Origin: a virus
DNA: 46,039 nucleotides
Virus record (IMG/VR): IMGVR_UViG_3300038439_000001
Location: 1 to 46,039 of that record
Strand: one strand, 5' to 3'
Part shown: positions 1 to 46,039 of the stretch, in pieces
Layout: every line of letters begins with the position of its first letter
Numbering within the stretch: position 1 is the stretch's first letter
The notes under the pieces: model-generated
Databases searched by the model: none
The model's input: only the letters and a program-made list of their open reading frames with translations
What the model was told of the DNA's origin: nothing
Program-made: the position numbers and the translations under genes

Positions 1-2745
1 GTTGGCGCTATACAGAATTGCCACTGCATCATCAGCCACCTGTTGCAGAGCTATGTTTTCGTAACCCCATCTGTTTGTCCCACTGTTGGTTAAATCTCTG
101 GTTACTAAAGTTGGAAAGGCACTTTCTATTAACATGCTTTTTAAAAGTGGTAGATTATTTACCGTAGTACCTGGGGCATTACCTATCCATACCTGACCTA
201 TATTCGACCCTAAATCATATACATCGTAGTTTGGAAGTGCTGTCGCAGGGAAATGGTTATTTGTCATAACCAGATTACGGATATAGTTGTAAGCAAATAC
301 ACCAGTTGCCGCCGCCCCGCCTGTTGTTATAGTGCAATTATTTAAAGTAAGATTATAGACATATCCAGCCGCCGACCCTTGAATATCAATCTGCTTGCCA
401 GCAATATCGGTATTATTGTTCTCCATGTAGATACCGTCTAAGGTAATACCAATAGGGGCTCCTGTCCCTGCCGTATACTGAAAACCACTTGCACCATTAC
501 TTTCTAACACTGTCCTATTATTTAAGGTTAAGCCAATAACTCCGCTTCCTTCTATGTAAAACCCTTGTCTTATATTACCTCTGGATGATAGACTTGAAAA
601 AGTAGCTGTGGTTAAACTTGCTGTTTGAGGTATATATACACCCCACCAGTTGCCTTCGCAATAGAGACGATTGGCAGTGAATTCTACATTCGGCCCCGTA
701 CCAAAACTTAATCCATAACAGGATGACCCCGTAAAGCCAGTTATATGTAGACCATCATCTTCTAAGTGTCCACCACTATCAACAAGCAATCCACCTGCAC
801 TTGCTCCGCTAACATACTTTATGGTGAAGTCTTTTAGAGTTCCCCCTCGTCTATGCGTTTCCCCTCCATAAGAAGTTTGTGTCCTTTTTATACAAGGCCC
901 CGAAGCTACAGTACTTAAGATTTTAGAATTCCAACCCTTACCCTTCATACTGATATTATTAGGCAATACAAAAGTAGTACCATTCACGTAGGATGTTTCA
1001 TCTTCGAGTAAAATGGTACCTCTTCTAAACCCTGCTAATGTATCAGGGAAACAGGCTTTTGCCAGATTAAGCGCTATATTATCATCGGTAACACCATCGC
1101 CCTTAGCTCCAAACCATTCAGGGTAGGCATATTTAAGACCTGTTACCGCACCGGAACCAGTGAATATTTGATAACGTCCAGCGTCAGGAGTGTCTGGAAG
1201 AACCAAAGTAAAAGCCCCATGACTGATAATAGTATCATTCATAAACTTAAATATAATATTGGTGTAAGATGAATAGTCGACATTAGAGGAAAATACCCAG
1301 GTTCCTCTTGAAAAATTAAGATCTACTTTGTTAGTGGTGCCAAGTGATGTTAGAGCAGAAGTAACTGTTGCTTGTAGAAAAGATGCCCCAAACCAGTCGG
1401 CATAAGCCTTGTTTAACCCCGCTACAAGTCCACTTCCTGTAAATACTTGATATGTCCCTGCTATATCTGGTTGTGATCCAAAAGTAACAGCGAATGTCTC
1501 GTGACTGATTAAACAACCAGGAGGAAGTTTAAAAGTAATATTAGTATAAGCACTCCAATCTGCCGCAGCCCCTATTACCCAGATTCCAGGACGGAGAAGA
1601 AGGGTAACTTTGTTTACTGTGCCTATTGCGGTAAGGGCGGCTTCGATGGTAGCTTGGGTGAAGGAAGTGCCAGAACCATAAGTGTGCAGAGCATCAACTT
1701 CATAGTTAATATACTTAGAAAGAGCTAATTGATCGGGAGCGATAACTTTATATGCTTCAGTACCTATGGTAATCTCTGCTGCAGACGCAAATCCACCAAC
1801 AAAGAAAGAATTTAACACTGCCGCTGTTAGTGTAGTTGCAGGTGTATAGGTAAGACCTCCAGTAATTGCAACACTTCCAGTGCCAGTAAAAGGATCAAAG
1901 AAATAAGGGCCTATGTCTATCTGCTTTGCATTGTTAATGGTTAAAGTAATACCTGGTGCTATAGATAAATCTCCACCTTTAACTATCTTAATTTGGATAT
2001 TAGAAGGAATAGAATCTGAGTAATCAACTGGAGATGATTTATTAACAGCTAAGGTTACCTTATTAGTAGATATCCAAGTAAGTGCTGTGCGAAGATAAGG
2101 AAACCAAGTAAGGTTAAGTTCTGCTCCATCTCTAAAGCGAAAGTTTCCAGCTCCAGCAAAGAGTTGATAGTTGCCTGCTTCAACTTGGCCAATGTTAGAT
2201 ACAGTAACTCCAGCATTTGCTGTGAGAATATTACTAGCAGCTTCCCACTTAAGAGTTACATTATTTCCAGGTGAGTAACTTGCAGTAACATTTGCTGCCT
2301 TAGACACTATAAGTGTTACAGTGTCATTTACAGTCAAGGCAAAAGCTGACTCAATACTATTAAACCATCCAGTCTTTAATACAGTCCCTGAAGCAAAGTC
2401 TATATTTCCAACACCTGTAAATATCTGTCTGTTGTCAGCTGAGATATTCTTTGTGTTGATAGTGAGTTGGCCAGAGTTAGTGATTGAACCGTTGCGAATG
2501 AACTTGAGACGGACATTAGCTGGCACAGTTAGACTAGTTACTACCTGAGGGCTGACAATCACTATCTCACGATCATTAGCTCCGATGGCAGTAACTGCTG
2601 CATTGAGTGAACTGTATGAACGAGCATCAACCCAGATACCTTGTGTGCCAGTTAGAATTACATCCGAGAAGTATTCAGCCTTAACTCCTATAGAGATAGA
2701 AAGGACTAAGCATAAAGAGACAAGTAGTAAGTATAGTTTTTTCAT
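1..2745 (-). CDS. Tailspike/tail fibre with signal peptide and pectate-lyase-like domain (3' end missing)
   Basis: An open frame of 915 codons begins at ATG 2745 and stays open to base 1, so the C-terminus lies outside this end. The N-terminus is a signal-peptide-like segment (MKKLYLLLVSLCLVLSISIG, then VKAEYF). Residues about 100-540 carry repeated modules with a [QY].FTGxG motif near residues 106, 194, 285, 431 and 525, often followed by W-F-G-A. The last copy reads WFGAKGDGVTDD near residues 543-554, the usual entry into a right-handed beta-helix (pectate-lyase/tailspike) fold. The rest is rich in N, G, T and V, as beta-helices are. Inferred role: receptor-binding or glycan-degrading spike. 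A signal peptide is unusual for a virion protein. The C-terminal part appears to be the partial frame at 45766-46039. It is the last gene of the block running left from 6984 before the window edge. Confidence 0.8.
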   Translation of the reverse strand, partial: MKKLYLLLVSLCLVLSISIGVKAEYFSDVILTGTQGIWVDARSYSSLNAAVTAIGANDREIVIVSPQVVTSLTVPANVRLKFIRNGSITNSGQLTINTKNISADNRQIFTGVGNIDFASGTVLKTGWFNSIESAFALTVNDTVTLIVSKAANVTASYSPGNNVTLKWEAASNILTANAGVTVSNIGQVEAGNYQLFAGAGNFRFRDGAELNLTWFPYLRTALTWISTNKVTLAVNKSSPVDYSDSIPSNIQIKIVKGGDLSIAPGITLTINNAKQIDIGPYFFDPFTGTGSVAITGGLTYTPATTLTAAVLNSFFVGGFASAAEITIGTEAYKVIAPDQLALSKYINYEVDALHTYGSGTSFTQATIEAALTAIGTVNKVTLLLRPGIWVIGAAADWSAYTNITFKLPPGCLISHETFAVTFGSQPDIAGTYQVFTGSGLVAGLNKAYADWFGASFLQATVTSALTSLGTTNKVDLNFSRGTWVFSSNVDYSSYTNIIFKFMNDTIISHGAFTLVLPDTPDAGRYQIFTGSGAVTGLKYAYPEWFGAKGDGVTDDNIALNLAKACFPDTLAGFRRGTILLEDETSYVNGTTFVLPNNISMKGKGWNSKILSTVASGPCIKRTQTSYGGETHRRGGTLKDFTIKYVSGASAGGLLVDSGGHLEDDGLHITGFTGSSCYGLSFGTGPNVEFTANRLYCEGNWWGVYIPQTASLTTATFSSLSSRGNIRQGFYIEGSGVIGLTLNNRTVLESNGASGFQYTAGTGAPIGITLDGIYMENNNTDIAGKQIDIQGSAAGYVYNLTLNNCTITTGGAAATGVFAYNYIRNLVMTNNHFPATALPNYDVYDLGSNIGQVWIGNAPGTTVNNLPLLKSMLIESAFPTLVTRDLTNSGTNRWGYENIALQQVADDAVAILYSAN

Positions 2746-2756
2746 ATTTGGACTCC

Positions 2757-2781
2757 AGTTTATTCAATTTTTAAACGAGAT
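2757..2781. repeat. 25-bp palindrome, degenerate copy
   Basis: Arms AGTTTATTCAA and TTAAACGAGAT with centre TTT. It overlaps the last codons and the TAA stop (2760-2762) of the radical SAM-glycosyltransferase gene. Confidence 0.6.
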
Positions 2782-4862
2782 TGTTTAATCTTATCACGCC
2801 AAGAAAGACCACGAGCGTGAGAAGAACCCTTTTCAAGCTTAATTTGGGTACGGTAGTTGATTATTCCAAGTCCCCATTTCTTGTCCATGTAAGCACGATT
2901 TTTCTTCAATAATGCATCTATATCAAAGCCTTCTTTTTCTTGGATTAAGTTAAAAGTCGAACGACCTTTGTGATAGATGCAAGTGTCAATGGCAAATTCT
3001 GTTTTATATCCAAGCTCACGAGCTGCTATGTTGTAGTCGTTATCGTCCCACATTCCCATATCATAGTTAACATCAAGTAAACCGACTTTATCAATTACTT
3101 CCCTTTTAATTACTGCACAGAGAAAGGCTACGAATGGAGTGGCACAGGTTCGACCAGAATAGTGGGTCTCTAGGTATTGATTAACCTCAGACATAGACAT
3201 AGAAAGTTGATTTGGAACTATAGTATTGTGTAGAGATAGACTATGATGAGAGTCCATCTGTCCATGACCTTGAGGATCAGGCATGGTTAGCGAACCTATA
3301 ATGCCAAGCTTAGGATCACGCTTAAGGATATTAATCATCTTTTCAAGCCATCTATCTGAAACAACTGTGTCGTTGTTGAGGAGGCAGACAAAAGGTGCAG
3401 TTGATGATTGAAGACCTTTGTTTACTGCATTTACGAAACCTTCATTTTTAGACATCTTAATGCTCAAATGAGGCATGTCAGAGATAGTTCGTTCAATATT
3501 TGAACGATCTTTAGATGCATTGTCTACCCAGATTACTTGATAGTCAGTAGTGCAGCGTTTGATACTTTCAAGGCAAGCTATTGTATATTGTTCGTTTTCG
3601 TAAGTAGGAATGATTATGTCGCATTGGGCAGATACTTTGATATTGCCGTCTCCTCTAAGGCCTCTGAGAACAGCATTTATGTAAGTATAGTCTACATCTT
3701 TGACTTTCTGACCATAAGGACAGCGATCGTAGTGGTTACGATCAAGCAATGATAGCCCCTCTTTAATACACTCTTCACCAAGGGAGTTCCCTGGATAAGG
3801 AGTGAAGAAGGCCCAGGAAGGCATTTCAGCTTTGATTGTATCTGCCATTCTTGCAGTTGCTTGAATATCTTCTTTGGTTTCCCAAGGAAGACCAATCATG
3901 TAGTTGGCGTAGATCTTAGCTCCAGCACTGCGAATAATCTTTGCTGACTCAAGATTTTGCTCGACAGTAGTTCCTTTCTTCATCTTATCAAGGATTCGTT
4001 GCGAGCCAGACTCAAAGCCGACTGAGACTAAATCCCACCCAACTTTGACAAGTTTTTGAACTAGGTCTGGATATTTACAGATTCCATCTGCTCTTCCAGC
4101 AGCCCAGAAAGGTAATCCGATTTGAGGGTATTTTTCTATAAATTCTTCAATCCAAGAGGGCTGGATAAGGAAAGTATCATCGTGAATCATGACGCACTCA
4201 GGATGGAGAGTTTCTTTGAGCCACTTTAATTCATTGATCAGTGAATCAACAGAACGCCTTCGTAACTTCTTACCAAAGTGATTGTCTTCAAGGGGTTGAC
4301 AAAAGCCACATTGGTAAGGACATCCTCGTGCAGATGCAACAGAGATCATTTTGGTTAGCTTCCCACCATACCACCAGCCAGCACAGTTTTCAAGACAGTC
4401 TCGATAGATAGTTCGATCAAAGAAAGGAAGCACATCTATATTAAGTGGCTTCTCACCAATGATAGATCGTTCAAATTTTGAACAATCTTGAAGAAACTGA
4501 GGAAAGGTAATTTCACTTTCACCATGGAAGATATAGTCAATATCTGAGTTTTCAATTAACTCATTTGGCGCTGCTGTAACATGATAGCCTCCGACAAGGA
4601 CTTTAGAACCCTGTTCCTTAGCCATATTAACAATCTTCATTCCAATAGGATAGTAGGAACTTTTAAGACCAAAAGCTATTAAATCATATCCTTTGATAGA
4701 TTCTTTCAACTGCTCATCATTGAATAAGATCTTCATATCAAGAAAATCAATATCACAACCTGCATTCTTAGCAACTGTATATGTCATCCCTGCTCCATGA
4801 TCATGCCAGGAATCAAGACCTTGTCCGTTGTAAGGATAGAGTGCGATTAAGAGGGTTTTCAT
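2760..4862 (-). CDS. B12-type radical SAM enzyme fused to GT2 glycosyltransferase
   Basis: A 700-residue two-enzyme fusion. Residues 1-150 resemble a cobalamin-binding-type Rossmann domain (VLVGGYHVTAAP at 88-99). Residues about 170-370 are a radical SAM core with the 4Fe-4S motif C181-x3-C185-x2-C188 and a VGFESGS strand typical of B12-dependent radical SAM proteins. From about residue 411 there is a family 2 GT-A glycosyltransferase (DIIIPTYEN, WVDNAS at 445-450, a metal-binding NND at 496-498). No transmembrane segment is evident. It overlaps the upstream methyltransferase-kinase gene by ATGA, so the two are translationally coupled. Inferred role: making and transferring a modified sugar, on the virion or host surface. 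The substrate is unknown. Two 25-bp palindromes lie inside this gene and a third at its end. Confidence 0.85.
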   Translation of the reverse strand: MKTLLIALYPYNGQGLDSWHDHGAGMTYTVAKNAGCDIDFLDMKILFNDEQLKESIKGYDLIAFGLKSSYYPIGMKIVNMAKEQGSKVLVGGYHVTAAPNELIENSDIDYIFHGESEITFPQFLQDCSKFERSIIGEKPLNIDVLPFFDRTIYRDCLENCAGWWYGGKLTKMISVASARGCPYQCGFCQPLEDNHFGKKLRRRSVDSLINELKWLKETLHPECVMIHDDTFLIQPSWIEEFIEKYPQIGLPFWAAGRADGICKYPDLVQKLVKVGWDLVSVGFESGSQRILDKMKKGTTVEQNLESAKIIRSAGAKIYANYMIGLPWETKEDIQATARMADTIKAEMPSWAFFTPYPGNSLGEECIKEGLSLLDRNHYDRCPYGQKVKDVDYTYINAVLRGLRGDGNIKVSAQCDIIIPTYENEQYTIACLESIKRCTTDYQVIWVDNASKDRSNIERTISDMPHLSIKMSKNEGFVNAVNKGLQSSTAPFVCLLNNDTVVSDRWLEKMINILKRDPKLGIIGSLTMPDPQGHGQMDSHHSLSLHNTIVPNQLSMSMSEVNQYLETHYSGRTCATPFVAFLCAVIKREVIDKVGLLDVNYDMGMWDDNDYNIAARELGYKTEFAIDTCIYHKGRSTFNLIQEKEGFDIDALLKKNRAYMDKKWGLGIINYRTQIKLEKGSSHARGLSWRDKIKQSRLKIE
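3486..3510. repeat. 25-bp palindrome inside a coding sequence
   Basis: Arms AGTTCGTTCAA and TTGAACGATCT, centre TAT. It lies inside the GT2 domain of the radical SAM fusion, where it encodes D-R-S-N-I-E-R-T. The inner six pairs are perfect, with a C-G pair in place of the usual T-A. Confidence 0.85.
4464..4488. repeat. 25-bp palindrome inside a coding sequence
   Basis: Arms AGATCGTTCAA and TTGAACAATCT, centre ATT. It lies between the cobalamin-type and radical SAM domains of the fusion protein, encoding D-C-S-K-F-E-R-S in the same reading frame as the copy at 3486. Confidence 0.85.
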
Positions 4863-5791
4863 AAAGATTCCTTGTTAATCTCTTTAATGTTAGTCCAGCC
4901 ACAATCTCTAAGAAGATCAGCAGCTTTAAGTTTAAAGTCATAGAAACTTAACTCATAACCTTCTATTACTATATCTCTGTTTACATAGCCAGTTAACCAT
5001 GTGTGAAGAGTGTTGATGAAGAAGTCAAGGTATTCATCAAGATAGTGGCCACGTACCAGATTAGCATAGTAAGCAGCTGAAAAAGTTTTATTTGCATCTC
5101 TTGTCAATTCGTTTCTCCAAGCCGCCGCTATATTGTCAGTCATTAGATGTTTGTGATTGAAGTAAGTCTGAGCCAGAGTTGTCTTACCAGTTCCTCCAGG
5201 GCCATAGATGAGAATGGCCTCAGGTAGTGTAGACTTAGGGCCTGAGAGGTGAAAGACATGACGAAGGGAACTGTCAGGACTTATTGTTATACCTTTGTCT
5301 TGGATGCAGGAGAAGTACCTTCCAGCTATGGAGCAGAAAGCTGAGATGGAAGGGATAAAGATGTTTCGGTAAGTGCTAGTGAAGATTGCATCTGGAGATT
5401 CACAGATCCAGAGGTCGCAGATGACTTGTTTGGAACAACGAGCAAAGAGATCAAAGAGATGATTTAGATCTTTGATGTAATGAAGCATGCCTGAAGCCAT
5501 AATAATGTCATAGCATCCATAAATGTCTTCGGCATCTTCACAGCGAAAAGTGAGTTCAGGAAAGATAGAGCTTGCCTGCTTTATAACATCTCGATCTATG
5601 TCAATTCCAGTTACTTGCTTAGCTCCTTGTTGGAGAGCAAGGTAACCTAACATTCCAGTGTTACAGCCACAGTCGAGAACTGTCTTGTCTGTGAAGTCAA
5701 TACCTTGAGTTAGCTGAGCAAACTTAGCAGAAGTATCCATGTCACCTTCTTGGACTACTACACCATCCTTAACTATTCTCTGATAAGGCAC
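4859..5791 (-). CDS. SAM methyltransferase fused to P-loop kinase
   Basis: Class I methyltransferase at the N-terminus: motif I VLDCGCNTG about residues 38-46, a GIDID acidic loop about 62-66, and an MASGMLHY post-motif. A P-loop kinase-like domain follows: Walker A GPGGTGKTT about residues 197-205, then DIVIEGYELS, which resembles small-molecule kinases. I chose the GTG start at 5791 because GGAGG lies 5 bases upstream; a TTG at 5803 would add four residues. It overlaps the radical SAM-glycosyltransferase gene by ATGA. Inferred role: modifies (methylates and phosphorylates) a sugar or similar small substrate together with that neighbour. Neither substrate can be read from the sequence. Confidence 0.75.
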   Translation of the reverse strand: MPYQRIVKDGVVVQEGDMDTSAKFAQLTQGIDFTDKTVLDCGCNTGMLGYLALQQGAKQVTGIDIDRDVIKQASSIFPELTFRCEDAEDIYGCYDIIMASGMLHYIKDLNHLFDLFARCSKQVICDLWICESPDAIFTSTYRNIFIPSISAFCSIAGRYFSCIQDKGITISPDSSLRHVFHLSGPKSTLPEAILIYGPGGTGKTTLAQTYFNHKHLMTDNIAAAWRNELTRDANKTFSAAYYANLVRGHYLDEYLDFFINTLHTWLTGYVNRDIVIEGYELSFYDFKLKAADLLRDCGWTNIKEINKESL

Positions 5792-5804
5792 TATAGCCTC
5801 CAAA

Positions 5805-5831: not shown

Positions 5832-6005
5832 TTATATCGTATTAGTTTTAGCAATTCCCTGACGGAGGAAGATACCAATCAAACCAGTTAAGGCTATCTG
5901 AATTGCATCTGTTAGAATTATTTCGCCAGATAGAAAACCTCCAATAGCACCGATTACAGCTATGATACCAGTCCAAGTTGTCTTTTGTTTTAGAGTCTCA
6001 TTCAT
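5832..6005 (-). CDS. Small holin-like membrane protein
   Basis: A 57-residue protein with two hydrophobic segments, about residues 12-26 (GIIAVIGAIGGFL) and 33-47 (AIQIALTGLIGIFL), separated by a short SGEIILTD turn. It has a charged N-terminus (MNETLKQK) and a short polar tail. Its start overlaps the stop of the endolysin gene by ATGA. Size, topology and position beside a lytic enzyme suggest a holin that lets the endolysin cross the inner membrane. No family was recognised, so this rests on topology and context. Confidence 0.6.
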   Translation of the reverse strand: MNETLKQKTTWTGIIAVIGAIGGFLSGEIILTDAIQIALTGLIGIFLRQGIAKTNTI

Positions 6006-6385
6006 TTTTTAACCTCCTTAAAAATATTCATATAGTTAAATACTTTATCAATATAGAAGTCTCGATCTGAAGGATCACAGAAATGTGCAGTTGCTTCTTT
6101 GGCAGTCTTCCACCTTTTAAGAAGAAGTCTGAGAAAGAGTAAACCACAGCAGATATCGATTAAGTCATCATCAACCTTTTCCATTGCTTGAAGAAGATCT
6201 TTCATGGCAATAGAAGACATTTGAAAAACTCCCTTACATCCAGTCGGTGATAGTTGTTTGATACCAAGAGAGCTTTCAGTCATAGCAATGGCTGCAGCCC
6301 AAATAGGATCGACTTCTAATAAGGGTGCAAAGAGCTTGATCTTATCTAAAATTTCAATCTGCTTTGTTAGCAATTTCATTGTCAT
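6002..6385 (-). CDS. Lytic transglycosylase-like endolysin
   Basis: A 127-residue protein with the goose-lysozyme/SLT pattern: the catalytic Glu in A-M-T-E-S-S-L-G (about residue 37), then SPTGCKGVFQM, the usual 'G-x-x-Q' strand after the catalytic helix. It is predicted to cleave peptidoglycan for host lysis. There is no signal peptide, so export would depend on the neighbouring holin-like protein. A GAGG site lies six bases before the ATG. The protein is little more than the catalytic domain, with no cell-wall-binding module. It sits between the small terminase and the holin-like gene. Confidence 0.75.
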   Translation of the reverse strand: MTMKLLTKQIEILDKIKLFAPLLEVDPIWAAAIAMTESSLGIKQLSPTGCKGVFQMSSIAMKDLLQAMEKVDDDLIDICCGLLFLRLLLKRWKTAKEATAHFCDPSDRDFYIDKVFNYMNIFKEVKK

Positions 6386-19588: not shown

Positions 19589-19804
19589 ATGGCCGACCTA
19601 AACGACTTTGACTATACATCTATTCTCGATATGAGTAATGATGAGGCTATTGATACACTTCGACAGATTCGTTTATCAAGACGAATCCCTGAGAAGAAAA
19701 CAACTACACGAATATCCACTAAACAAATACACACAAAAACAATAGCTACTATCGATGCTAATATGGCAGCTAATTTATTAAAAATCCTGGAGGGAAACAA
19801 ATGA
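19589..19804 (+). CDS. Small unknown phage protein
   Basis: 71 residues. An acidic N-terminus (DLNDFDYTSILDMSNDEAIDTLRQIRLSRRIPEKK), a basic Thr/Lys-rich linker and a final helix (MAANLLKILEGNK). The two-helix-plus-linker layout recurs before ParB-methyltransferase genes in related phages, as far as I recall. It overlaps the ParB-methyltransferase start by ATGA, so the two are coupled. Confidence 0.65.
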   Translation: MADLNDFDYTSILDMSNDEAIDTLRQIRLSRRIPEKKTTTRISTKQIHTKTIATIDANMAANLLKILEGNK

Positions 19805-21132
19805 TCTCAGTTGGTAAAGTAGGCATGATAGATACTAATAGTATTATAGTTGCCAATGATAGGGCTAGAGAGATAATGGGAGACTTAGATGGAACTGAAG
19901 CTAATATGAAAGAGATAGGTTTAACAACTCCATTAACAGTTAGGGATAATGGAGATGGAACATTTACACTCCTAGCTGGTGAGAGAAGATATAGAATTCT
20001 TCAACGAAATGAAGTTCCTAAAATTCCTGTACGTATATACGAACATGATCTTACTGAACTTGAAATGAAGATCATTGAAAAGTCTGAGAACTTCTTTCGT
20101 AAAGATATGGAGTTCTGGGAGTTAGATAAACTAACCCTTGAAATTCATAGAATGCAACAATCTATTCATGGAACAAAGGCACCAGGGCCTGGACATTCTG
20201 GATGGTCTACAGAAGATACAGGTAATATGTTAGGTGGGGTTTCAAAAGCTACTATATCCCTTGCCATCAAACGTGCTGAGTTGAGAGAACAACTACCAGA
20301 AGTATTTGAAGGATGTAAGACAGCATCTGATGCTTCTAATATCATTAAGAAGATGGACGAAGCGTTGGTAAAGCAAGTGATTGCCAAACAACTTGAGTCA
20401 AAGACAGATAATAAACTATTAAGTCAATTATCAAAGTGTTTTATTATCAAGGATTTTTTTGAAGGTGTAAAGGAAATACCTGCTGGAGCATTTCACTTAG
20501 TTGAAATAGACCCTCCGTATGGAATAAATTTAGATGGTTCAAATGTAGGTAGTTCTGCTAAGAAAAACTATACTTATTCAAGTTCTTATAACGAAGTAAG
20601 TGTTACTGAATATCAAGAATTTATTTCAAATGTTTTAAAAGAGTGTTATCGAGTAATGGCTGATCACTCCTGGTTGTTATGCTGGTTTGCACCAGAACCT
20701 TGGTTTGCAACTTTATACAATGAGCTTATTCAAGCAGGGTTTGAAACAACTCGTATGTGTCCTATATGGACTAAGCACTTTGGACAATCCAAAAGACCAG
20801 AAATGCACTTGGCAAATAGTTATGAGATATTCTTCTATGCATGGAAAGGAAGACCAGCTATGAGTAAACCAGGTAGAGCAAATGAGTTTAACTTTCCACC
20901 TGTCCCACCTCAGCAGAAGTCTCATCCTACAGAACGCCCTGTAGAATTGATGAAAGAAATATATGAGACGTTTGCCTTTCCAGGTTCTCGCATCTTAATT
21001 CCATTTCTTGGTTCAGGTAGTGGACTTATAGCTGCACATCAGGCTGGAATGTCAGCCATAGGATTTGAACTATCACAGTCTTATAAGAATAGTTTTCTTG
21101 TAAAAGTTCATGGGATGTCTGGAGGTAAATAA
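19801..21132 (+). CDS. ParB-like domain + HTH fused to DNA methyltransferase
   Basis: 443 residues. Residues 10-90 are a ParB/Srx-type domain with A-G-E-R-R-Y-R at 59-65, the box that binds CTP in ParB. Residues about 138-160 (TGNMLGGVSKATISLAIKRAE) are a ParB-type helix-turn-helix. From 215 on is an amino-methyltransferase: E-I-D-P-P-Y-G around 235-241, and a C-terminal FLGSGSGL SAM loop, i.e. motif IV before motif I (beta class, N6-adenine or N4-cytosine). Predicted to methylate phage DNA, with site choice through the ParB/HTH part. Its target is unknown; the 25-bp palindromes, most of which carry GATC, are candidates. Confidence 0.85.
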   Translation: MISVGKVGMIDTNSIIVANDRAREIMGDLDGTEANMKEIGLTTPLTVRDNGDGTFTLLAGERRYRILQRNEVPKIPVRIYEHDLTELEMKIIEKSENFFRKDMEFWELDKLTLEIHRMQQSIHGTKAPGPGHSGWSTEDTGNMLGGVSKATISLAIKRAELREQLPEVFEGCKTASDASNIIKKMDEALVKQVIAKQLESKTDNKLLSQLSKCFIIKDFFEGVKEIPAGAFHLVEIDPPYGINLDGSNVGSSAKKNYTYSSSYNEVSVTEYQEFISNVLKECYRVMADHSWLLCWFAPEPWFATLYNELIQAGFETTRMCPIWTKHFGQSKRPEMHLANSYEIFFYAWKGRPAMSKPGRANEFNFPPVPPQQKSHPTERPVELMKEIYETFAFPGSRILIPFLGSGSGLIAAHQAGMSAIGFELSQSYKNSFLVKVHGMSGGK

Positions 21133-25946: not shown

Positions 25947-25956
25947 TAAACAATCT
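25932..25956. repeat. 25-bp palindrome at the convergence point
   Basis: Arms AGATCGTTTAA and ATAAACAATCT, centre TTA. It lies where the rightward and leftward units meet. It contains the stop of the + strand gene and two bases of the stop of the - strand gene, so it is placed as a bidirectional end element. Confidence 0.9.
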
Positions 25957-28900
25957 ATTGTCCACTTCTTACTCTTGCAACTTCATCATTAAACTCTTTA
26001 GAAAATATCCCACCAGCTCTAGTAACAATAGTTACCTCATCCATAAGCTGTTGAAATTCCTTTTCATTTGAGGCATCTAATCGCTTAACATATACCTCAG
26101 CCCTTCTTCTAATATCAGGTATTCGTTTTAAACCTGTCCAAAAGTAGCGATTAGATAAATCCTTCGTATATTCCTGAAACTTAAAATCTTTCATCAACTT
26201 ATCTTCAATATCCTTGTTTTTAAATTCTCTAATATAATTAACTACATCAACCCTATCCATAGTATTATCAATTAAATAAGCATCCACCCTTATATCTAAT
26301 CCTCTAGTCTCGATAAAGTTATCAATTTCAGCCTTATCCTTAGCCTGTTGTAGAGTATCAGCAAACTTTGAATAAGGATTAGTTATACCAAAGAAAGCCT
26401 TGATAACTGGGACTTTAGATAATGACTCTGCTAAGGTAGCCTCTCTATCTTTTTGAGGTAGGTCTCCAAAAGCTCCTTCATAAGCTTTACCTAATAACTG
26501 AGCATACATATTATCGTTAGTAATCAACTGACCCATTAAGTACTTTAATCTTTCAGGACTCATACTAGTTACTTTTCCAATATCCTTAGCGACTTGAGGA
26601 GTATCCTTATCCCATTCCTCTTCACTACTTCCAGTCTCCTCCCCAGTTAATATTTTAGGAAGTCTATAGTCATGAGCCTTAGGCACTATATCTTTGCCTA
26701 ACCAAAAGTCTTTATTTGTAGCATACCCAAGAGCACCGCTAACTGTGGGGGGTAAAGTTGTGACTTCTACAGGAGATAGATCTCTCCATGCCTGGCCTAT
26801 TCTTTCTGTATCTACTTCCTCCCCAGTCATCCAGTCAACTCCACCTTCAAACAAGGTTTTAAAGAATCTCATATCTTGGTTAATAGGGATCATTATAAAA
26901 GGGTATCTAGTATCATTCATAGAATCTTTAAACCCAAACATATCACCTAAAGGAAACACCAGATTTCCCTGTGTTCTTCTATCTCCTTTCAGATCCTTCA
27001 TAGTATCAGGATGTAGTTCTTGATTACCTAAATATAATCCTGTTACAAGTGCAGCAAATTGTGTAAGCTTATATGCAGATACTACCGGCTGATCTTTCCA
27101 TGCTCTAATAAATCCTCTCATAGCCACTAATTTTGCATTAAGAAAAGGAATAGCATTATCTAATGCTTTAACAATATCTCCACCCTGACTAAAGTCCATA
27201 TAGTCACGAGCTGCAAAGGTGGCTTCTTTTCTAATCTTTTTATCTTTATAAGCCTCCTCAAAAGATATACCTTTTTCTTTGGCTCTAGTCTCAATTACTT
27301 TATTCTTTATAGACATTCTACCTAATATCTCAGATGTAGTTCCAAGGTATCCAGCAAACTTATAAAATGCCTCTGAAGCAGGCTCAAGATGCTTTCCATG
27401 AAACAATAATCTTCCTTGTGGAGTTAGCAGCTCCATCCCTCCACCATCATCTATATAGTCATCAAAAGTTCCTCTGCGAAGTGCTGCATCTTTAAATATC
27501 TTTGAGTAGTGCTTTCCTAATTGATATGCAGCTATAGGCAATGTAGGACTATATACTGATTGAAATCTACCAAACACTTTAGACTTCTCTGGTCTAAGAA
27601 CTCTAGATGTAAACCAAGCCTGCATAGCATCTCTAGGTAAGTTTCTTAGAGCAAATGCTTGATTAATACCAGTAGCAAAGGTTTTTACTAATGGACTAAA
27701 AGAAGCATAGCGCATAAACTGTGCATATTTATAAGTAACCTGTGCATTGCTCATTATCCATTCAGGGCCTATGTCATCTGAAAGAAATATAGTTTTCTTT
27801 TTTCCATCTATAAATACATCAGTAGTGTAGTGTCTAAAATTCTCAGGAATTTTATCTCCCTTTGATTGTTTGACTCTAGCAAAAGAATTTTCTTTTTCTT
27901 CTATAGCTAAATCATAAATGTCTCTATTTGCTCTGTTTTTAAATATCCTACTATACAATGTATTAAAAGTCTCAAGCGCTACAACATTTGAATCTAGTTC
28001 ATATATATCTGTTGTCTTACCTTTAGCTAGCCGTTCAATTCCAGAGTCATAGACAGATAGTTTTTTTCCTCCTACTTTTATTTCATTCTTCCTATCAAAT
28101 ATATCTTCAACTACAAGTCTAGTCTTTTTATAGTTATGTGAAGTTAAGTCTTTCATTTCCTGTTCTGAAAGTAGACCTTCCTCGTAAGCATCCTTGACTG
28201 CCTTTCTCATCCAATCGAAGTAAGCTCCAACTCTTCCACCGACTGTACCGTCTTCTCTAACATGATATAGTCTATGTGCTTCCTCTGGTGTTAGGTCTCT
28301 TATCTTATTGATTTCTTTAGATCTAAACATAGTAGTATACATAGCTGCCATTTGAGGAGTTGCATCTGCTGGAGGGGTGAATTGTTTAGGTGTTTTATAT
28401 TTAACTATATCTAAAATTCTTAAGTCTCTAATGAGTCCATTCTTAATAAACTTTTCATCGGCACTTAAGCCACCATCGACTTCCTTTCTCATCTGCTCAA
28501 ATACTCTAAATGCCTTAGGGTGACCACCTCTAGCCATATACATACTGCTCATAGCTTCATATCCTCTATCGTCTTTGGCTAGAAGGCGTCTAGTAGTTCC
28601 AGAACGCTCAGCGAAGGAGGCTGTGAATTTCCTTCTAAGTAGCTTAGTTGCTTCTTTAATATTAAACTCCTTCATTTCTACAGCTTTTTTCATTCCCTTA
28701 TTGTGGGCATCTGCAAGCTTAATAATAGATGCTTGAGTATAAGGCTCTCTAGCTTTAAGATCTGCAATAGCTTGAGTAGTAGCATCGTCAGAGGCTTCAG
28801 ATAGTTTCTTGGACTCTAGAGTATATTCTTCTTGTTCAGCTATTAGTTCTTTATGTCTATTGTATAGTTCTGTCAATTCTACTGTGTGTTCTTTAGTTGC

Positions 28901-31822
28901 TTTTTTAGTTTTCTTAAGCTTCTTTAATTCATTTATCCTCTTTACAATATTAACAAGGTCAGTCTTTGTCTTCTTCACTAACCTTGCAATCTCTATAGGG
29001 TCTATTCCTGTATAGAGTTTAGTTCCTTCAGTAGACTGCATAAAATTAGAATCACCTCTTAGACCCTTAGGATAATTTATTATACCTTCATCACCTAACA
29101 TATACTCAAGCGTCTCCCAAGGAGGTTCAGTCTTCCTCTGCTCAGGGGTCATCTTCATCCTTTTCTCACTCAACCTAGCTTCCAGCTCACCAGGATCTTT
29201 CATGTAAGATTCGAATGGAGTATCTTCACCAAAGAATATCTCAGATATTTTTTCGTACTCACTTACACTTATTCTTTCAGCTTTTTCAAATATAGGATCA
29301 ACAAGAGTTCTAAGGGATACAGTCTTATTAGATCCTTGCCATATATTTATAGCTGCGTCAATCTCCTTTATTATTTTTGAGTCTTTAGCTACTTTTTTCA
29401 TCTTGGATAAGATTGTAGAAGTTCTGATTATTTCTTGTGCCTCAGGACTACTCCCTCTAAACTTTGACTCCATTATATCATTTACAGCATGTTGAACTTC
29501 ATGAACTATAATATCTTTTTCAGGGTATTTTACAGTTATTATTTTGCCTCCAGCACTATATTGTCCTAAATTTTCTTTCATCTCCTTAACTATTATCTTA
29601 AGATTTCTAAGTTCAGGGACTGCATCAAACAGAGTAGGATGGCTTACAACTTCAGTTAGGTCATGCACTTCCCGATCTAGTAGTTCAGGCTTAACCTTAA
29701 GTCCTTCATCTCCTATCTCATACCTCCACTTTCTATCCCTCCCTAACCAATAGCCAGTTGCGTCAAATACTTCTTTATTCCTATACAACACATTTCCAAC
29801 TGTAGTTTTAATCCCCTTTAAAACATCTTTAACCATACTAGGGATTTGATCTACAGGGATCATCATGTTGAGTTGGACACCACCAGTTTGTTTAACAATT
29901 AAACGATCTGCTTCTCTCGCCCACTTTGCCGCCTCACTAACTGTATCTTTCCAAATGTTAAAGTCATTAGTCTCAGCAAAGTGTCTGCTTAGTTCATCTG
30001 CCCTTGTAGACATATCACTTAATCTATCTTTAATCTCATTAATAGAAACCTTCTCACCATTTAGCCATCTATTAACTTCATTAATTAAATAACGAGTATA
30101 GGTCTCAGGTGAGCTCTCTACACTTTTAATCTTTTCAGTAAACAACTTATTCATTGTATCAGTATGCTTTATATTCTTATCACGAAATGGGCTGGATTCA
30201 GTATCTAATTCCTTAGGTCGTAGAGTTCCAGTTAATTCATCTAGTTTAGTAATCTCTAATATTTCCTTAGCAGCTTCTTCAATATCCATCTTTCTCTGAA
30301 TTCTTTTCTTCTCTTTAATATAATCTCCAGGTTTTATTTCTTTGTTGTCAAGCTTAGTTTTTAATGTAGATAGTTCGTCTGCTTTGTTAGGAATAGTTAC
30401 AGTATCTTTAGGTTTAACTATACTCTCCTCAATAAACTCAAGGCCTGTTTTTGTAACAGGCTCAACTGCTTCAGGTTCAGGTTCAACTAATTCCTTAGCC
30501 TTAGCTACCTTAGCCTTCTTAACCTTCTCCCCTTTAATCTTTAGATCTTCCTTGACAACTTCCTCTATATCAACTTTATCAACTATCTCTTTCTTTGCTG
30601 CTAGCTCAGCTTGTATATCTTCTATCTCAGTAATTCTTGTCTTAGCTTTCTCAATCATGTTAGGCTCAATAGATGGAATATCTTTATCTTCCACAACTTT
30701 AGTCTCAACCTTGCCAGATGTAGTAGGCATAACTGGAGTTAGCTTAAAATCTGTTCCTGTATATGGAGTAGGTGGAGGTTTTGATGATGGAGTATAGTTA
30801 AAGGCTGATTCTAGACCTTTGGCTTCTATAGATTTAGTAATAGATTCAACAGCAGCCTTAGCAGCACCTCTTGTACCCTTAACACCTATATGCAGTCCTT
30901 TAGCTCCAATAAAGAATGTTATGAGTTCTTCATAAGGCATTCCGACAAGCTCAGGTCTTCCACCTGCCCATTTGATAAATTCATGTGCCATAGACTGCTC
31001 AAATAATTTTCTTGCAGGAGAAGCTACATATGTATGAGCTAACTCGAAAGGTATCCCTAATATATAGCCTCCTGCTTTTGCTAAGAAAGCTCCTTCTTCA
31101 GTATAAGGCTGATAGGTTGTAAGTGATGCTCCTCGCTCAGATAGTTCACGTGCCTCATCTTCAGACATTCCTTGAGCCATATAGGTGTATTTGGTAGCTA
31201 AGGCTGCCATAGTACTCATTATTCCTGAACCTAACGACATTGCTGCTTCAGGTATAGCAACTGCATTTTTACCTATCTTAGTCCATATAGGGTGTTCTTT
31301 AGTTACTTTAGTAAAAGCTTCATACAGATCACCACCAACCTCTGCAGCCTTAACACCTAAACTATCTGCTATAGCTGTAGTTCTAGTATATACCCTATTA
31401 GATATATCTGAAACTGCTTTACGTAACTCAGTTGATAATGAAGGAGTTTTATAAGGCACTCCTCCTTCATCTAAAGGTTCACCCTTCTTACCAAACCCCC
31501 CAGGAGGTTTAGGAGCCTCTAAAGTATCTAATGACTGCCCAGGAATCAAAGGAACAAGCCAAGGAGATTGACCTAGTTCAAAGTAGTTCCTAAGTGCATT
31601 AAGTCTCTGCTGTTCAATCTTAGCAGATTCAGGATCTATATTAGATGCACTAATATCAATCATATGTCTAGGAGGTTTAGGTTGAACTTGAGGATCTTCA
31701 TTTAAAAACTCAAGTCCAGTTATAGCCTCTGGAGATACTATAGATGGAGGCTGAGGCTGAGATTGACTCCTATCCTGAATATTATTTTGTTTATCATCTA
31801 AAAACTCAAGCCCTGTAGACAT
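25955..31822 (-). CDS. Giant internal virion protein with HExxH metallopeptidase motif
   Basis: 1955 residues. The N-terminus has a short repeated motif T-G-L-E-F-[LI] (residues about 3, 35 and again near 460) spaced by disordered P/Q/E-rich sequence. A zinc-peptidase motif H-E-V-Q-H occurs near residue 773. Downstream is a long helical region; FATGINQAFALRNLPRDAMQAWF resembles LPD38-like parts of large polyvalent phage proteins. Such proteins are packaged and injected with DNA to open the envelope or protect the genome. It is the last and largest late gene. A 25-bp palindrome is embedded at 29885-29909. I see no lytic domain. Confidence 0.75.
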   Translation of the reverse strand: MSTGLEFLDDKQNNIQDRSQSQPQPPSIVSPEAITGLEFLNEDPQVQPKPPRHMIDISASNIDPESAKIEQQRLNALRNYFELGQSPWLVPLIPGQSLDTLEAPKPPGGFGKKGEPLDEGGVPYKTPSLSTELRKAVSDISNRVYTRTTAIADSLGVKAAEVGGDLYEAFTKVTKEHPIWTKIGKNAVAIPEAAMSLGSGIMSTMAALATKYTYMAQGMSEDEARELSERGASLTTYQPYTEEGAFLAKAGGYILGIPFELAHTYVASPARKLFEQSMAHEFIKWAGGRPELVGMPYEELITFFIGAKGLHIGVKGTRGAAKAAVESITKSIEAKGLESAFNYTPSSKPPPTPYTGTDFKLTPVMPTTSGKVETKVVEDKDIPSIEPNMIEKAKTRITEIEDIQAELAAKKEIVDKVDIEEVVKEDLKIKGEKVKKAKVAKAKELVEPEPEAVEPVTKTGLEFIEESIVKPKDTVTIPNKADELSTLKTKLDNKEIKPGDYIKEKKRIQRKMDIEEAAKEILEITKLDELTGTLRPKELDTESSPFRDKNIKHTDTMNKLFTEKIKSVESSPETYTRYLINEVNRWLNGEKVSINEIKDRLSDMSTRADELSRHFAETNDFNIWKDTVSEAAKWAREADRLIVKQTGGVQLNMMIPVDQIPSMVKDVLKGIKTTVGNVLYRNKEVFDATGYWLGRDRKWRYEIGDEGLKVKPELLDREVHDLTEVVSHPTLFDAVPELRNLKIIVKEMKENLGQYSAGGKIITVKYPEKDIIVHEVQHAVNDIMESKFRGSSPEAQEIIRTSTILSKMKKVAKDSKIIKEIDAAINIWQGSNKTVSLRTLVDPIFEKAERISVSEYEKISEIFFGEDTPFESYMKDPGELEARLSEKRMKMTPEQRKTEPPWETLEYMLGDEGIINYPKGLRGDSNFMQSTEGTKLYTGIDPIEIARLVKKTKTDLVNIVKRINELKKLKKTKKATKEHTVELTELYNRHKELIAEQEEYTLESKKLSEASDDATTQAIADLKAREPYTQASIIKLADAHNKGMKKAVEMKEFNIKEATKLLRRKFTASFAERSGTTRRLLAKDDRGYEAMSSMYMARGGHPKAFRVFEQMRKEVDGGLSADEKFIKNGLIRDLRILDIVKYKTPKQFTPPADATPQMAAMYTTMFRSKEINKIRDLTPEEAHRLYHVREDGTVGGRVGAYFDWMRKAVKDAYEEGLLSEQEMKDLTSHNYKKTRLVVEDIFDRKNEIKVGGKKLSVYDSGIERLAKGKTTDIYELDSNVVALETFNTLYSRIFKNRANRDIYDLAIEEKENSFARVKQSKGDKIPENFRHYTTDVFIDGKKKTIFLSDDIGPEWIMSNAQVTYKYAQFMRYASFSPLVKTFATGINQAFALRNLPRDAMQAWFTSRVLRPEKSKVFGRFQSVYSPTLPIAAYQLGKHYSKIFKDAALRRGTFDDYIDDGGGMELLTPQGRLLFHGKHLEPASEAFYKFAGYLGTTSEILGRMSIKNKVIETRAKEKGISFEEAYKDKKIRKEATFAARDYMDFSQGGDIVKALDNAIPFLNAKLVAMRGFIRAWKDQPVVSAYKLTQFAALVTGLYLGNQELHPDTMKDLKGDRRTQGNLVFPLGDMFGFKDSMNDTRYPFIMIPINQDMRFFKTLFEGGVDWMTGEEVDTERIGQAWRDLSPVEVTTLPPTVSGALGYATNKDFWLGKDIVPKAHDYRLPKILTGEETGSSEEEWDKDTPQVAKDIGKVTSMSPERLKYLMGQLITNDNMYAQLLGKAYEGAFGDLPQKDREATLAESLSKVPVIKAFFGITNPYSKFADTLQQAKDKAEIDNFIETRGLDIRVDAYLIDNTMDRVDVVNYIREFKNKDIEDKLMKDFKFQEYTKDLSNRYFWTGLKRIPDIRRRAEVYVKRLDASNEKEFQQLMDEVTIVTRAGGIFSKEFNDEVARVRSGQ
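29885..29909. repeat. 25-bp palindrome inside the giant virion gene
   Basis: Arms AGTTTGTTTAA and TTAAACGATCT, centre CAA. On the coding (minus) strand it reads D-R-L-I-V-K-Q-T, the same frame as the copies at 3486 and 4464. It is identical to the intergenic copies at 36029 and 39906. Confidence 0.9.
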
Positions 31823-43993: not shown

Positions 43994-44183
43994 TAAAAAC
44001 AATATTGACTAAAAGCATTACTATTGCCACTACTATACCACCGAGAATAAAGTTTAACCTTGTCATTATATTGTCCATTCTTTCCCTTCCTTTATCTAAT
44101 TCTTCCCACTGTTTAGAAGTATTTGATTCAAGAGTTAATATAGCCTTACAAATCCCACTATGCTCAGAACAAGAATTATCCAT
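43983..44183 (-). CDS. XhlA-like small membrane protein
   Basis: 66 residues from ATG 44183 (one base shared with the large terminase stop, TAATG); a further start at 44198 is inside the terminase. N-terminal Cys-His segment (MDNSCSEHSGIC), a coiled coil (LTLESNTSKQWEELDKGRERMDNIMTRL) and one transmembrane helix (FILGGIVVAIVMLLVNIVF) ending K-I-V. This topology matches XhlA/haemolysin-type holin accessories. Together with the 5832 protein it gives two lysis candidates. Confidence 0.6.
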   Translation of the reverse strand: MDNSCSEHSGICKAILTLESNTSKQWEELDKGRERMDNIMTRLNFILGGIVVAIVMLLVNIVFKIV

Positions 44184-45724
44184 TAGACACATCTCCAATC
44201 TTCAATGGGCTTTTCATAATCTAACTCTTTATACTCAATCTCTATATCGTTAATGTCTTCTTTAGGTGAAAAGTATCTCTCACCAAGTTCAAGCATCTCA
44301 ATGAGATAAGCTTCAGCATCCATCAGATCCCATAAAGCAGATCGAGGAAACATAAGTAATTGTTGTTCAAGCTTTTTGATACCTGCACAAGACGCATTGT
44401 GATAGATGTAGCCACCACGATAGTAAGGTACAAGCTCCTTTATACGATGCTCTTTTTTCATCCCACCACGAGCTTTAAGCCAAATAAGTTCATAGAAACT
44501 TCCCCGCCTAAACATCTCATTTTTAATAGGTTGTTTGATGAACTCATTGAGCGAGGTTTCTTCAATACCTAATACTTTCGCTCCTAACATCTGAGCCATT
44601 CCAAACATAGCATCATAGATTTCATCTGGATACATTTTTTCAGATACTATATCCCTAATAAAGACCTTTGCACTATTAAGATCAATACCTATACCAATGA
44701 TAGCACTTTCAGCAGAGTGAATCTTGACTGTTTTAGCAGGATCAAGAATGACAACTGTTTCAATATTCTGATTTTGTTGAACTTCAACATCAAGTAACTT
44801 AAGGTCATTCTCATCTCCATGACGATCTAGAGGCAGATTATAATAATGAAAATATTCAGTTCTAAATGCAGAGTCCTTTGTTGATATAGGAAGATTACGA
44901 AGCTCACGAAAAAACACATCTGTTTGACCTGCTTCTACATGCTGATTCCATTCCTTCATAACATCTTCATCAGACATAAAGTCAGGGGCTGTAGATTTGA
45001 AGCTGTCATCGCAAGCTTCAAGTCGAACAGATGCCCAATCTGAAGAATCAAGTAACTTTTGTAATACAGAGTCTTCATGTTTAAGAGTGTCAATGTATAC
45101 TATTTTCCAATTCTTTACATTAGACCCTATCCGTGGAACAGATTTGATTACGTCTGCATAAAGCCACTCATACCATCCTTTGCGAATCTCATCATTGTTA
45201 ATGCTGTCAGGGTCTTCAAGATCATCTATAACAATTAGACCTGGCCGATCATTCTTGAACAAAACACCTCGAACCTGCTGGCCAGCTCCACGAGGCCAGA
45301 CTAATGTATCATAAGCAACCCAAGCTTTTTTGCTAAACACTTCGTCAAAGTCTTTGTTATCTGCATCTCGATGTTTGAAAGGGCCGAAGAATGCTTTGAT
45401 ATCTCGATTCGTTACAAGCTCACGGCGTAAGTTTTCAGTTTGAAGCGATGCAGCATCGTGAGACTTGTTTATGTAGACAATGAACCCTGTATGCCTAAAC
45501 AAAATCCATCTTGCCATCAGTGCAAGTGCAACTATACTTGTCTTTCCCCATCCACGAGGAGCTGCAATAGCTACTTTCTGAGCATCACTATCAATGAGAT
45601 CAAATATCTTCCCATGAACTCCTTCAGCAAAAGGTAAACTAAAACGATCAGGGAAGAACGTCGAAGCAGTCATTCGAGTTGAGATGCTACATTGAGATAG
45701 AATTTGTTTAATGTCTTGATCCAT
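44183..45724 (-). CDS. Terminase large subunit
   Basis: 513 residues. ATPase domain: Walker A A55-P-R-G-W-G-K-T62, Walker B G-L-I-V-I-D-D-L-E at 162-170, with a following motif-III-like VYIDTLKHED. Nuclease domain: D328 in VVILDPAKT, then IIGIGIDLNSAKVFIRDIV and LGIEETSLNEF (second acidic residue), with GGMKKEHRIKELVPYY near the end. It drives DNA into the procapsid and cuts concatemers; partners are the small subunit at 6416-6984 and the portal at 40674. The two terminase genes are far apart on the linear window but both lie in the late unit if the ends join. Confidence 0.92.
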   Translation of the reverse strand: MDQDIKQILSQCSISTRMTASTFFPDRFSLPFAEGVHGKIFDLIDSDAQKVAIAAPRGWGKTSIVALALMARWILFRHTGFIVYINKSHDAASLQTENLRRELVTNRDIKAFFGPFKHRDADNKDFDEVFSKKAWVAYDTLVWPRGAGQQVRGVLFKNDRPGLIVIDDLEDPDSINNDEIRKGWYEWLYADVIKSVPRIGSNVKNWKIVYIDTLKHEDSVLQKLLDSSDWASVRLEACDDSFKSTAPDFMSDEDVMKEWNQHVEAGQTDVFFRELRNLPISTKDSAFRTEYFHYYNLPLDRHGDENDLKLLDVEVQQNQNIETVVILDPAKTVKIHSAESAIIGIGIDLNSAKVFIRDIVSEKMYPDEIYDAMFGMAQMLGAKVLGIEETSLNEFIKQPIKNEMFRRGSFYELIWLKARGGMKKEHRIKELVPYYRGGYIYHNASCAGIKKLEQQLLMFPRSALWDLMDAEAYLIEMLELGERYFSPKEDINDIEIEYKELDYEKPIEDWRCV

Positions 45725-45735
45725 TAAAATTCCTT

Positions 45736-45760
45736 AGTTCGTTTAATAATTAAACAATCT
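45736..45760. repeat. 25-bp palindrome before the terminase
   Basis: Arms AGTTCGTTTAA and TTAAACAATCT, centre TAA. Located between the tailspike C-terminal frame and the large terminase gene. Neither arm contains GATC. Confidence 0.85.
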
Positions 45761-45765
45761 TTTTA

Positions 45766-46039
45766 TTAATATGGCGATGTCCCACTAAATTTCATTCCTA
45801 CCGTTTTTGTACCACCTCCCCTGTTTAGGAGGTCTATTCTCAGTGCGTATCCACTTTTATAGATACCGATACCCAAATTCCCATCAACTATTGTTCCAGT
45901 TGTAGGAGCGGCAGCTACAATTTCCGCCTTTGTGCCAGTTGCAACTGCTTCATATGATGCTGTAACCCCATCCCAATAGACAAAAATGATAGCCCACGCC
46001 TGAGCGAACTCGCCCCAACACTGAATTATACCAAGAAGA
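45766..46039 (-). CDS. C-terminal piece of a tailspike (5' end missing)
   Basis: A minus-strand frame enters at base 46039 and ends in TAA at 45766-45768 (90 residues). It reads LLGIIQCWGEFAQAWAIIFV, then YWDGVTASYEAVATGT and YKSGYALRIDLLNRGGGTKTVGMKFSGTSPY, a beta-sandwich tip as on phage tailspikes. It is very likely the end of the protein that leaves the window at position 1. Joined end to end, the two frames differ: two bases are missing or one is extra. The alternative is a separate gene at the edge of a longer genome. Confidence 0.65.
   Translation of the reverse strand, partial: LLGIIQCWGEFAQAWAIIFVYWDGVTASYEAVATGTKAEIVAAAPTTGTIVDGNLGIGIYKSGYALRIDLLNRGGGTKTVGMKFSGTSPY

Follow-up and report, generated by a model that had tools for sequence, protein, structure and literature searches.

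B12 radical SAM enzymes carry out chemistry beyond that of ordinary sugar-modifying enzymes, and their substrates are hard to predict. GenK, GenD1 and MoeK5 are B12-radical SAM methylases of gentamicin and moenomycin biosynthesis (PMC8992657). Their likeness to the phage protein presented here is one of description, and they differ from it in that their sugar-containing products belong to antibiotic biosynthesis. We know of no glycosyltransferase (GT) fused to any of the three. AprD4, a radical SAM 1,2-diol dehydratase, acts on the pseudodisaccharide paromamine, which is its substrate in the solved structure (PDB 6fd2), and to our knowledge does not use cobalamin. As for virion glycosylation in phages, mycobacteriophages are reported to bear glycans on their capsid and tail tube proteins (Freeman et al. 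2023, cited in PMC12619734); unlike the fusion examined here, such systems are not known from that account to involve a radical SAM partner. No description of a B12-radical SAM-GT2 fusion was found in openly licensed papers; both fold halves were already known, while the fusion architecture and its phage-restricted family appear to be new.

The window, i.e. the whole stretch of 46,039 nucleotides of viral DNA that was analysed, carries this fusion as one ORF with an ATG start, AAGGA 5' of the ATG and no internal stop. Its features are the following.

2760 to 4862, minus strand: fusion gene, B12-binding, radical SAM and GT2 domains, 700 aa (ORF, Pfam, AlphaFold2; same fusion in 15 other contigs)
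4494 to 4808, minus strand: B12-binding (Rossmann) domain, residues 19-123 (PF02310, 41.9 bits against a cut-off of 32.1)
3846 to 4331, minus strand: radical SAM core, residues 178-339 (PF04055, 68.9 bits against 29.5; Foldseek)
4299 to 4322, minus strand: CX3CX2C [4Fe-4S] motif, C181/C185/C188 (invariant in 21 of 21 radical SAM rows)
2856 to 3659, minus strand: GT2 domain of GT-A fold, residues about 402-669 (PF00535, motifs, GT-A matches in the PDB)
2787 to 2804, minus strand: short C-terminal motif SWRDKI after a disordered linker (pattern count, low pLDDT)

The initial annotation had read the ORF as a cobalamin-domain-like N-terminus and a radical SAM core (C181-x3-C185-x2-C188) joined to a GT-A transferase, and every part of this reading is borne out. 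Pfam gathering cut-offs were applied and all three domains exceed theirs, with PF00535 (Glycos_transf_2) covering residues 416-593 at 73.4 bits against 23.3, which keeps the C-terminus within GT2 in agreement with its fold matches. The Pfam score, the cysteines and the fold place the protein in the radical SAM superfamily, characterised by CX3CX2C in a radical SAM barrel, and the PF02310 score together with the fold place it in class B, which has an N-terminal B12-binding Rossmann domain; the DxD-like and acidic base motifs of family GT2 are present as well. Residues G92, H94, E115 and E117 of the B12-binding domain are invariant in 21 aligned rows, as are the NNDT, GM[WY]DDxDY and CIxHxGRxTF motifs of the GT2 half in 12. 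The AlphaFold2 model, built from 24 relatives, reached a mean pLDDT of 87 and a pTM of 0.78, with values below 50 confined to the C-terminal tail (residues 668-689), and no transmembrane segment was found in the protein (highest 19-residue Kyte-Doolittle mean 1.39). Judged from its sequence, the protein is a putative radical SAM and GT2 enzyme, both activities being predicted.

Among solved structures, the radical SAM half comes closest in fold to AprD4 (E 2.4e-18, TMt 0.67), although the two are only 18% identical, AprD4 has no GT domain and no AprD3-like reductase was recognised near the fusion. Further fold matches were obtained with cobalamin-dependent MgmA (9ccb), TsrM, OxsB, CysS and TokK. 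Because the fold is shared with AprD4-type proteins, of which AprD4 is cobalamin-free as far as we know, it does not by itself prove B12 use. With the cobalamin radical SAM enzymes of the HpnJ/BchE-type families, the fusion has in common an N-terminal Rossmann domain followed by a radical SAM barrel with CX3CX2C, whereas a GT2 domain sits in place of their usual C-terminal domain. The best NCBIfam match, HpnJ, scored 123.1 bits, far below the equivalog cut-off of 577.6, and BchE, MgmA (TIGR04014), HpnR and rSAM_AprD4 likewise stayed far below theirs (91.2 vs 481.35, 86.1 vs 360, 71.8 vs 650 and 46.2 vs 500 bits, respectively). S69 of the fusion, a position occupied by S or A in the family, appears to align with the lower axial Trp76 of TokK, and no His ligand below the cobalt is expected in the fusion; residues under the cobalt are known to vary between Arg, Asn/water, Trp and Leu (PMC8992657, PMC12846815). 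The GT half matches WrtF, AvpGT and ppGalNAc-T by fold and shares with them the GT-A fold and the metal and base motifs but, unlike them, makes up a separate subfamily that is apparently restricted to phages and occurs solely alongside this radical SAM family.

Taken together, the fold likeness, the known B12-radical SAM methylases with sugar products and the conserved GT motifs favour a tailoring-and-transfer enzyme working on a glycan. Building on the domains and invariant motifs, as well as on the recurrent linkage, the late-operon setting and the company of glycan genes observed below, it is proposed with moderate confidence that the fusion is a two-step enzyme made late in infection, which would alter a sugar and then transfer it to an acceptor. 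The N-terminal half would act on the sugar, or on a sugar-bearing acceptor, at an unactivated carbon, most likely through C-methylation by methylcobalamin and next through AprD4-like 1,2-diol dehydration/deoxygenation; the order of the two steps is part of what we infer here, along with the chemistry and the cobalamin. The C-terminal GT2 half would take the sugar from a nucleotide-sugar donor and attach it to an acceptor in the cytosol, which most likely would be a structural protein of the virion or else a glycan intermediate at the inner face of the membrane. A different division of labour is suggested by MgmA, a protein glutamine C-methylase that is the best sequence match among solved structures and the third by fold: since the target of MgmA is a residue of a protein, the fusion could likewise have a protein substrate, and its radical SAM half would then C-methylate or activate a residue of a phage structural protein, i.e. 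the acceptor instead of the donor sugar, before glycosylation by GT2. This would be consistent with the resemblance of the GT half to protein O-GalNAc transferases by fold, with the position of the gene near head or packaging genes in several backbones and with a C-terminal motif that could dock onto a protein. GT-A fold matches, however, do not discriminate acceptors, no candidate acceptor motif was found, and the sulfotransferase and APS kinase neighbours point to a larger glycan, and modification of the acceptor is accordingly considered rather unlikely.

IMG/VR was searched for carriers of the radical SAM gene, the fusion protein serving as the first query and an alignment of the radical SAM half as the second, and genome contigs added one match. 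This yielded 21 distinct carriers including the window, whose architecture was assigned by HMM searches of their ORFs. The C-terminal fusion (radical SAM-GT2) is present in 15 of them, the window among these; in contig L009 alone the order is reversed (GT2-radical SAM, a single protein of 797 aa), and three (L005, L006 and L019) have a separate GT2 gene just upstream of the radical SAM gene. In contig L007 the end of the cognate GT2 lies about 3.2 kb upstream, at the contig edge, and L010 is the only carrier without a cognate GT2, with other GT2 genes nearby. Six of the 15 C-terminal fusions, plus the near-copy L026, extend beyond GT2 to 931-965 aa, the extra C-terminal domain in L003 being PF11316 Rhamno_transf. 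The same fusion recurs as a single ORF in 15 further contigs, from 14 other IMG datasets and one MAG, and is therefore not a misassembly of two genes, an explanation that is thereby excluded.

In the radical SAM tree, the C-terminal fusions form one clade, on one side of a single branch (94/90), and the separate and reversed forms fall outside it. Resolution is lower in the GT tree, where this grouping shows less cleanly. The simplest history would be that adjacent genes fused once in each order, and the two domains are thus read from sequence as having fused at least twice in phages, in opposite orders. A reciprocal scan for the GT2 domain gave 20 loci, 19 of them on known radical SAM contigs and the twentieth just 28% identical. 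The pairwise distances of one half correlate with those of the other (r=0.54, a value reached in 0 of 2000 permutations), a correlation that common phage ancestry of both halves can produce alone. The coupling of both activities in one polypeptide, as the initial annotation had it, is thus strengthened by two fusion orders, adjacent genes and reciprocal co-occurrence. Since the partner is part of the same polypeptide, and this joining came about at least twice and in opposite orders, the class of substrate, a glycan, can be guessed. On contig L009, an IS1595-type transposase (1897-2814) lies about 1 kb upstream of the reversed fusion and may have helped the rearrangement. An N-terminal domain of about 95 residues was also noted in the separate GT2 of L006 (7689-8762) and at the N-terminus of the reversed fusion (L009:3729-6122); in L006 this extension shows a weak likeness to DnaJC11 C-terminal and rhamnose-binding lectin sequences.

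Outside the uncultivated viruses, 11 partial matches were found among INPHARED phages (best coverage 49%), none spanning both halves, and 285 among PLSDB plasmids, none at 80% coverage and again none spanning both halves. A scan of 84,980 species, which relied on two exact 7-mers and would therefore miss distant relatives, returned a single relative, on a MAG contig where the fusion neighbours terminase and portal genes. Among the matches listed for 287 genomes of that MAG's phylum, none but the same contig spans both halves, and a BFVD fold search gave no viral model covering both well. The fusion family would thus appear to be restricted to phages. A gene captured as such from a host was set aside, the one contig found by the species scan itself adjoining terminase and portal genes. 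That a host gene pair was captured and kept by chance, without function as a unit, could be imagined from the distant stand-alone radical SAM and GT2 homologues common in cellular genomes, but active-site residues are invariant among homologues at 55-78% identity, and there are two fusion orders, reciprocal co-occurrence and a retained C-terminal motif; chance retention is already disfavoured by this conservation and is held to be highly improbable.

Concerning that motif, 12 of 16 fusions (one near-duplicate contig included) carry the pattern [SDTN]W[RKQ]x[RK][ILMV], set after inspection of the fusion tails, among their final 32 residues, versus 1 of 647 other ORFs of at least 80 aa from the same loci. 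The SWRDKI-like peptide remains terminal even where an extra GT domain intervenes, and it is absent from the separate, non-fused forms. In the simplest reading, it probably serves for docking, as a tag that guides the enzyme onto its acceptor.

The surroundings of the fusion gene were then compared between the window and its sister phages, the relevant genes of the window being the following.

4859 to 5803, minus strand: class I SAM methyltransferase with a P-loop kinase-like domain, 314 aa, TTG start (upstream of the fusion)
1 to 2745, minus strand: late tailspike-like protein with a Sec-type signal peptide, cut by the window end (downstream of the fusion)
6002 to 6385, minus strand: possible lysozyme/transglycosylase, weak (SLT 17.2 bits, below the cut-off of 21.3; phrog_13449, E 0.0019)
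44183 to 45724, minus strand: terminase large subunit (phrog_38, E 9e-54)

In the main lineage, an HTH protein and lysis genes are followed by variable cargo, and then by the fusion, the tailspike-like protein, the terminase and the portal. The fusion overlaps the methyltransferase-kinase gene by 4 bp (4859-4862), as does its counterpart in L015 (7001-7004), and homologues of the methyltransferase-kinase gene lie beside the radical SAM gene in L015 and L007/L008. The matches listed in a fold search with the upstream protein were methyltransferases, none of them accounting for its kinase half. A terminase homologue follows the fusion in 13 other contigs. At the right end of the window (45725-46039), a C-terminus resembling that of a tail protein is encoded on the strand that also carries the ORF truncated at position 1, suggesting that the genome may be circular, in which case the terminase would be next in the late operon of the fusion; a frame difference was noted where the two ends (45725-46039 and 1-2745) would join. 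Portal and major capsid proteins of the window phage are SU10-like, and the phage also encodes a family A DNA polymerase, ThyX and dCMP deaminase. Among other backbones, that of L005 has a minor head protein near the gene, that of L007 a major head protein and that of L010 a head morphogenesis protein, and in L006 and L009 the gene shares the contig with a different terminase. Given these varied backbones, the gene pair appears to move between unrelated phages, yet it stays near late structural genes.

The late operon, in which the gene had been placed beside a tailspike and an endolysin, stands, whereas the endolysin is weak, with an SLT score below threshold, and the tailspike has become uncertain. 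In 10 other contigs, homologues of the protein encoded at 1-2745 come immediately, or almost immediately, downstream of the fusion. The protein has no Pfam or PHROG match and starts with a Sec-type signal peptide (MKKLYLLLVSLCLVLSISIGVKA), also found in 10 of 10 homologues checked (in one only from a later start codon). The tailspike label is doubtful because of this conserved signal peptide, which is odd for a tail protein assembled in the cytoplasm; the protein may reach the host surface by export. Near the fusion in sister phages, further small late proteins that are Fn3-like by eye have signal peptides too (L004:1474-1902, L020:2830-3255, L023:2485-2955 and L030:5313-5693). The conserved signal peptide, suggesting export of late products, together with the glycan genes of the neighbourhood and a weak PHROG match to GtrB-like O-antigen conversion (E 1.7e-5), would fit an enzyme that alters a host surface polysaccharide intermediate at the inner membrane face and so blocks re-adsorption of progeny or superinfection, as a late, soluble analogue of serotype conversion. 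On the other hand, the fusion has no transmembrane segment, no GtrA/Gtr partners were seen, and the setting is late and lytic instead of a prophage conversion module. Such a role is regarded as doubtful, to the same degree as modification of the acceptor.

DNA glycosylation is known from phages, and some hypermodification pathways include radical SAM enzymes. By this background, it is conceivable that GT2 glycosylates a DNA base altered by the radical SAM half, but there is nothing unusual about the replication genes of the window (ThyX, dCMP deaminase, family A polymerase, ligase, N4/N6 DNA methylase), and the gene sits in a late structural operon with glycan and sulfation genes as neighbours. 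No TET/JBP, base hydroxylase/hydroxymethylase or base kinase was recognised among the window proteins scanned, the genome being possibly incomplete. DNA hypermodification, with no supporting genes among those scanned, was set aside as very improbable.

The tailoring and transfer of a glycan is in agreement with the gene content of the sister phages, whose variable cargo beside the fusion includes GT2, GT92 and Rhamno_transf, and the decoration role foreseen in the initial annotation is backed by these neighbours. The methyltransferase-kinase homologue of L049 is surrounded by glycosyltransferase-like ORFs, and L010 has DegT aminotransferase, formyltransferase and methyltransferase genes around its radical SAM gene. 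A distant relative in L034 (35% identical) sits with SIS, GHMP kinase, HAD and GT2 genes, a set that would resemble a heptose-activation pathway. Against the scheme, the window shows no recognisable gene for the synthesis of nucleotide sugars. In L025, a Sulfotransfer_2-like protein is accompanied by an APS kinase (E 4.1e-20), and sulfotransferase-like proteins, called by Pfam (above cut-off for L025 only) and visible motifs, are encoded at L025:4007-5422, L003:7414-8004, L018:3252-4359 and L030:5930-7004, the Sulfotransfer_3-like ones being weak; these genes suggest that sister phages encode glycan sulfation. Profile searches with the small neighbour families A5 and A6 against solved structures gave nothing significant. 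The variable partners (methyltransferase-kinase, extra GTs and sulfotransferases with APS kinase) would further decorate or cap the glycan.

A more specific version of this scheme can be put forward tentatively, being a good deal less secure than the two-step reaction itself: a phage-restricted enzyme that alters and attaches, whose cobalamin-dependent radical chemistry would make a sugar foreign to the host, whose fused GT would put it on virion proteins at a site picked by the SWRDKI docking peptide, and whose product would be a sulfated or methylated glycan coat of distinctive chemistry. If true, radical chemistry would join the means already known for changes that phages make to their coat or to the surface of the host, and the fusion would offer compact enzymes for making unusual sugars.

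Other features were noted in passing. The window encodes a ParB N-terminal domain fused to an N4/N6 DNA methylase (19801-21132, plus strand) and a 1955-aa late protein with LPD38 and weak LPD23 domains (25955-31822, minus strand), which is probably an internal virion protein. Intein domains are found inside the B12-radical SAM protein of L034 (5711-7672) and, weakly, inside a Mu F-like head protein of L010 (30-2072).
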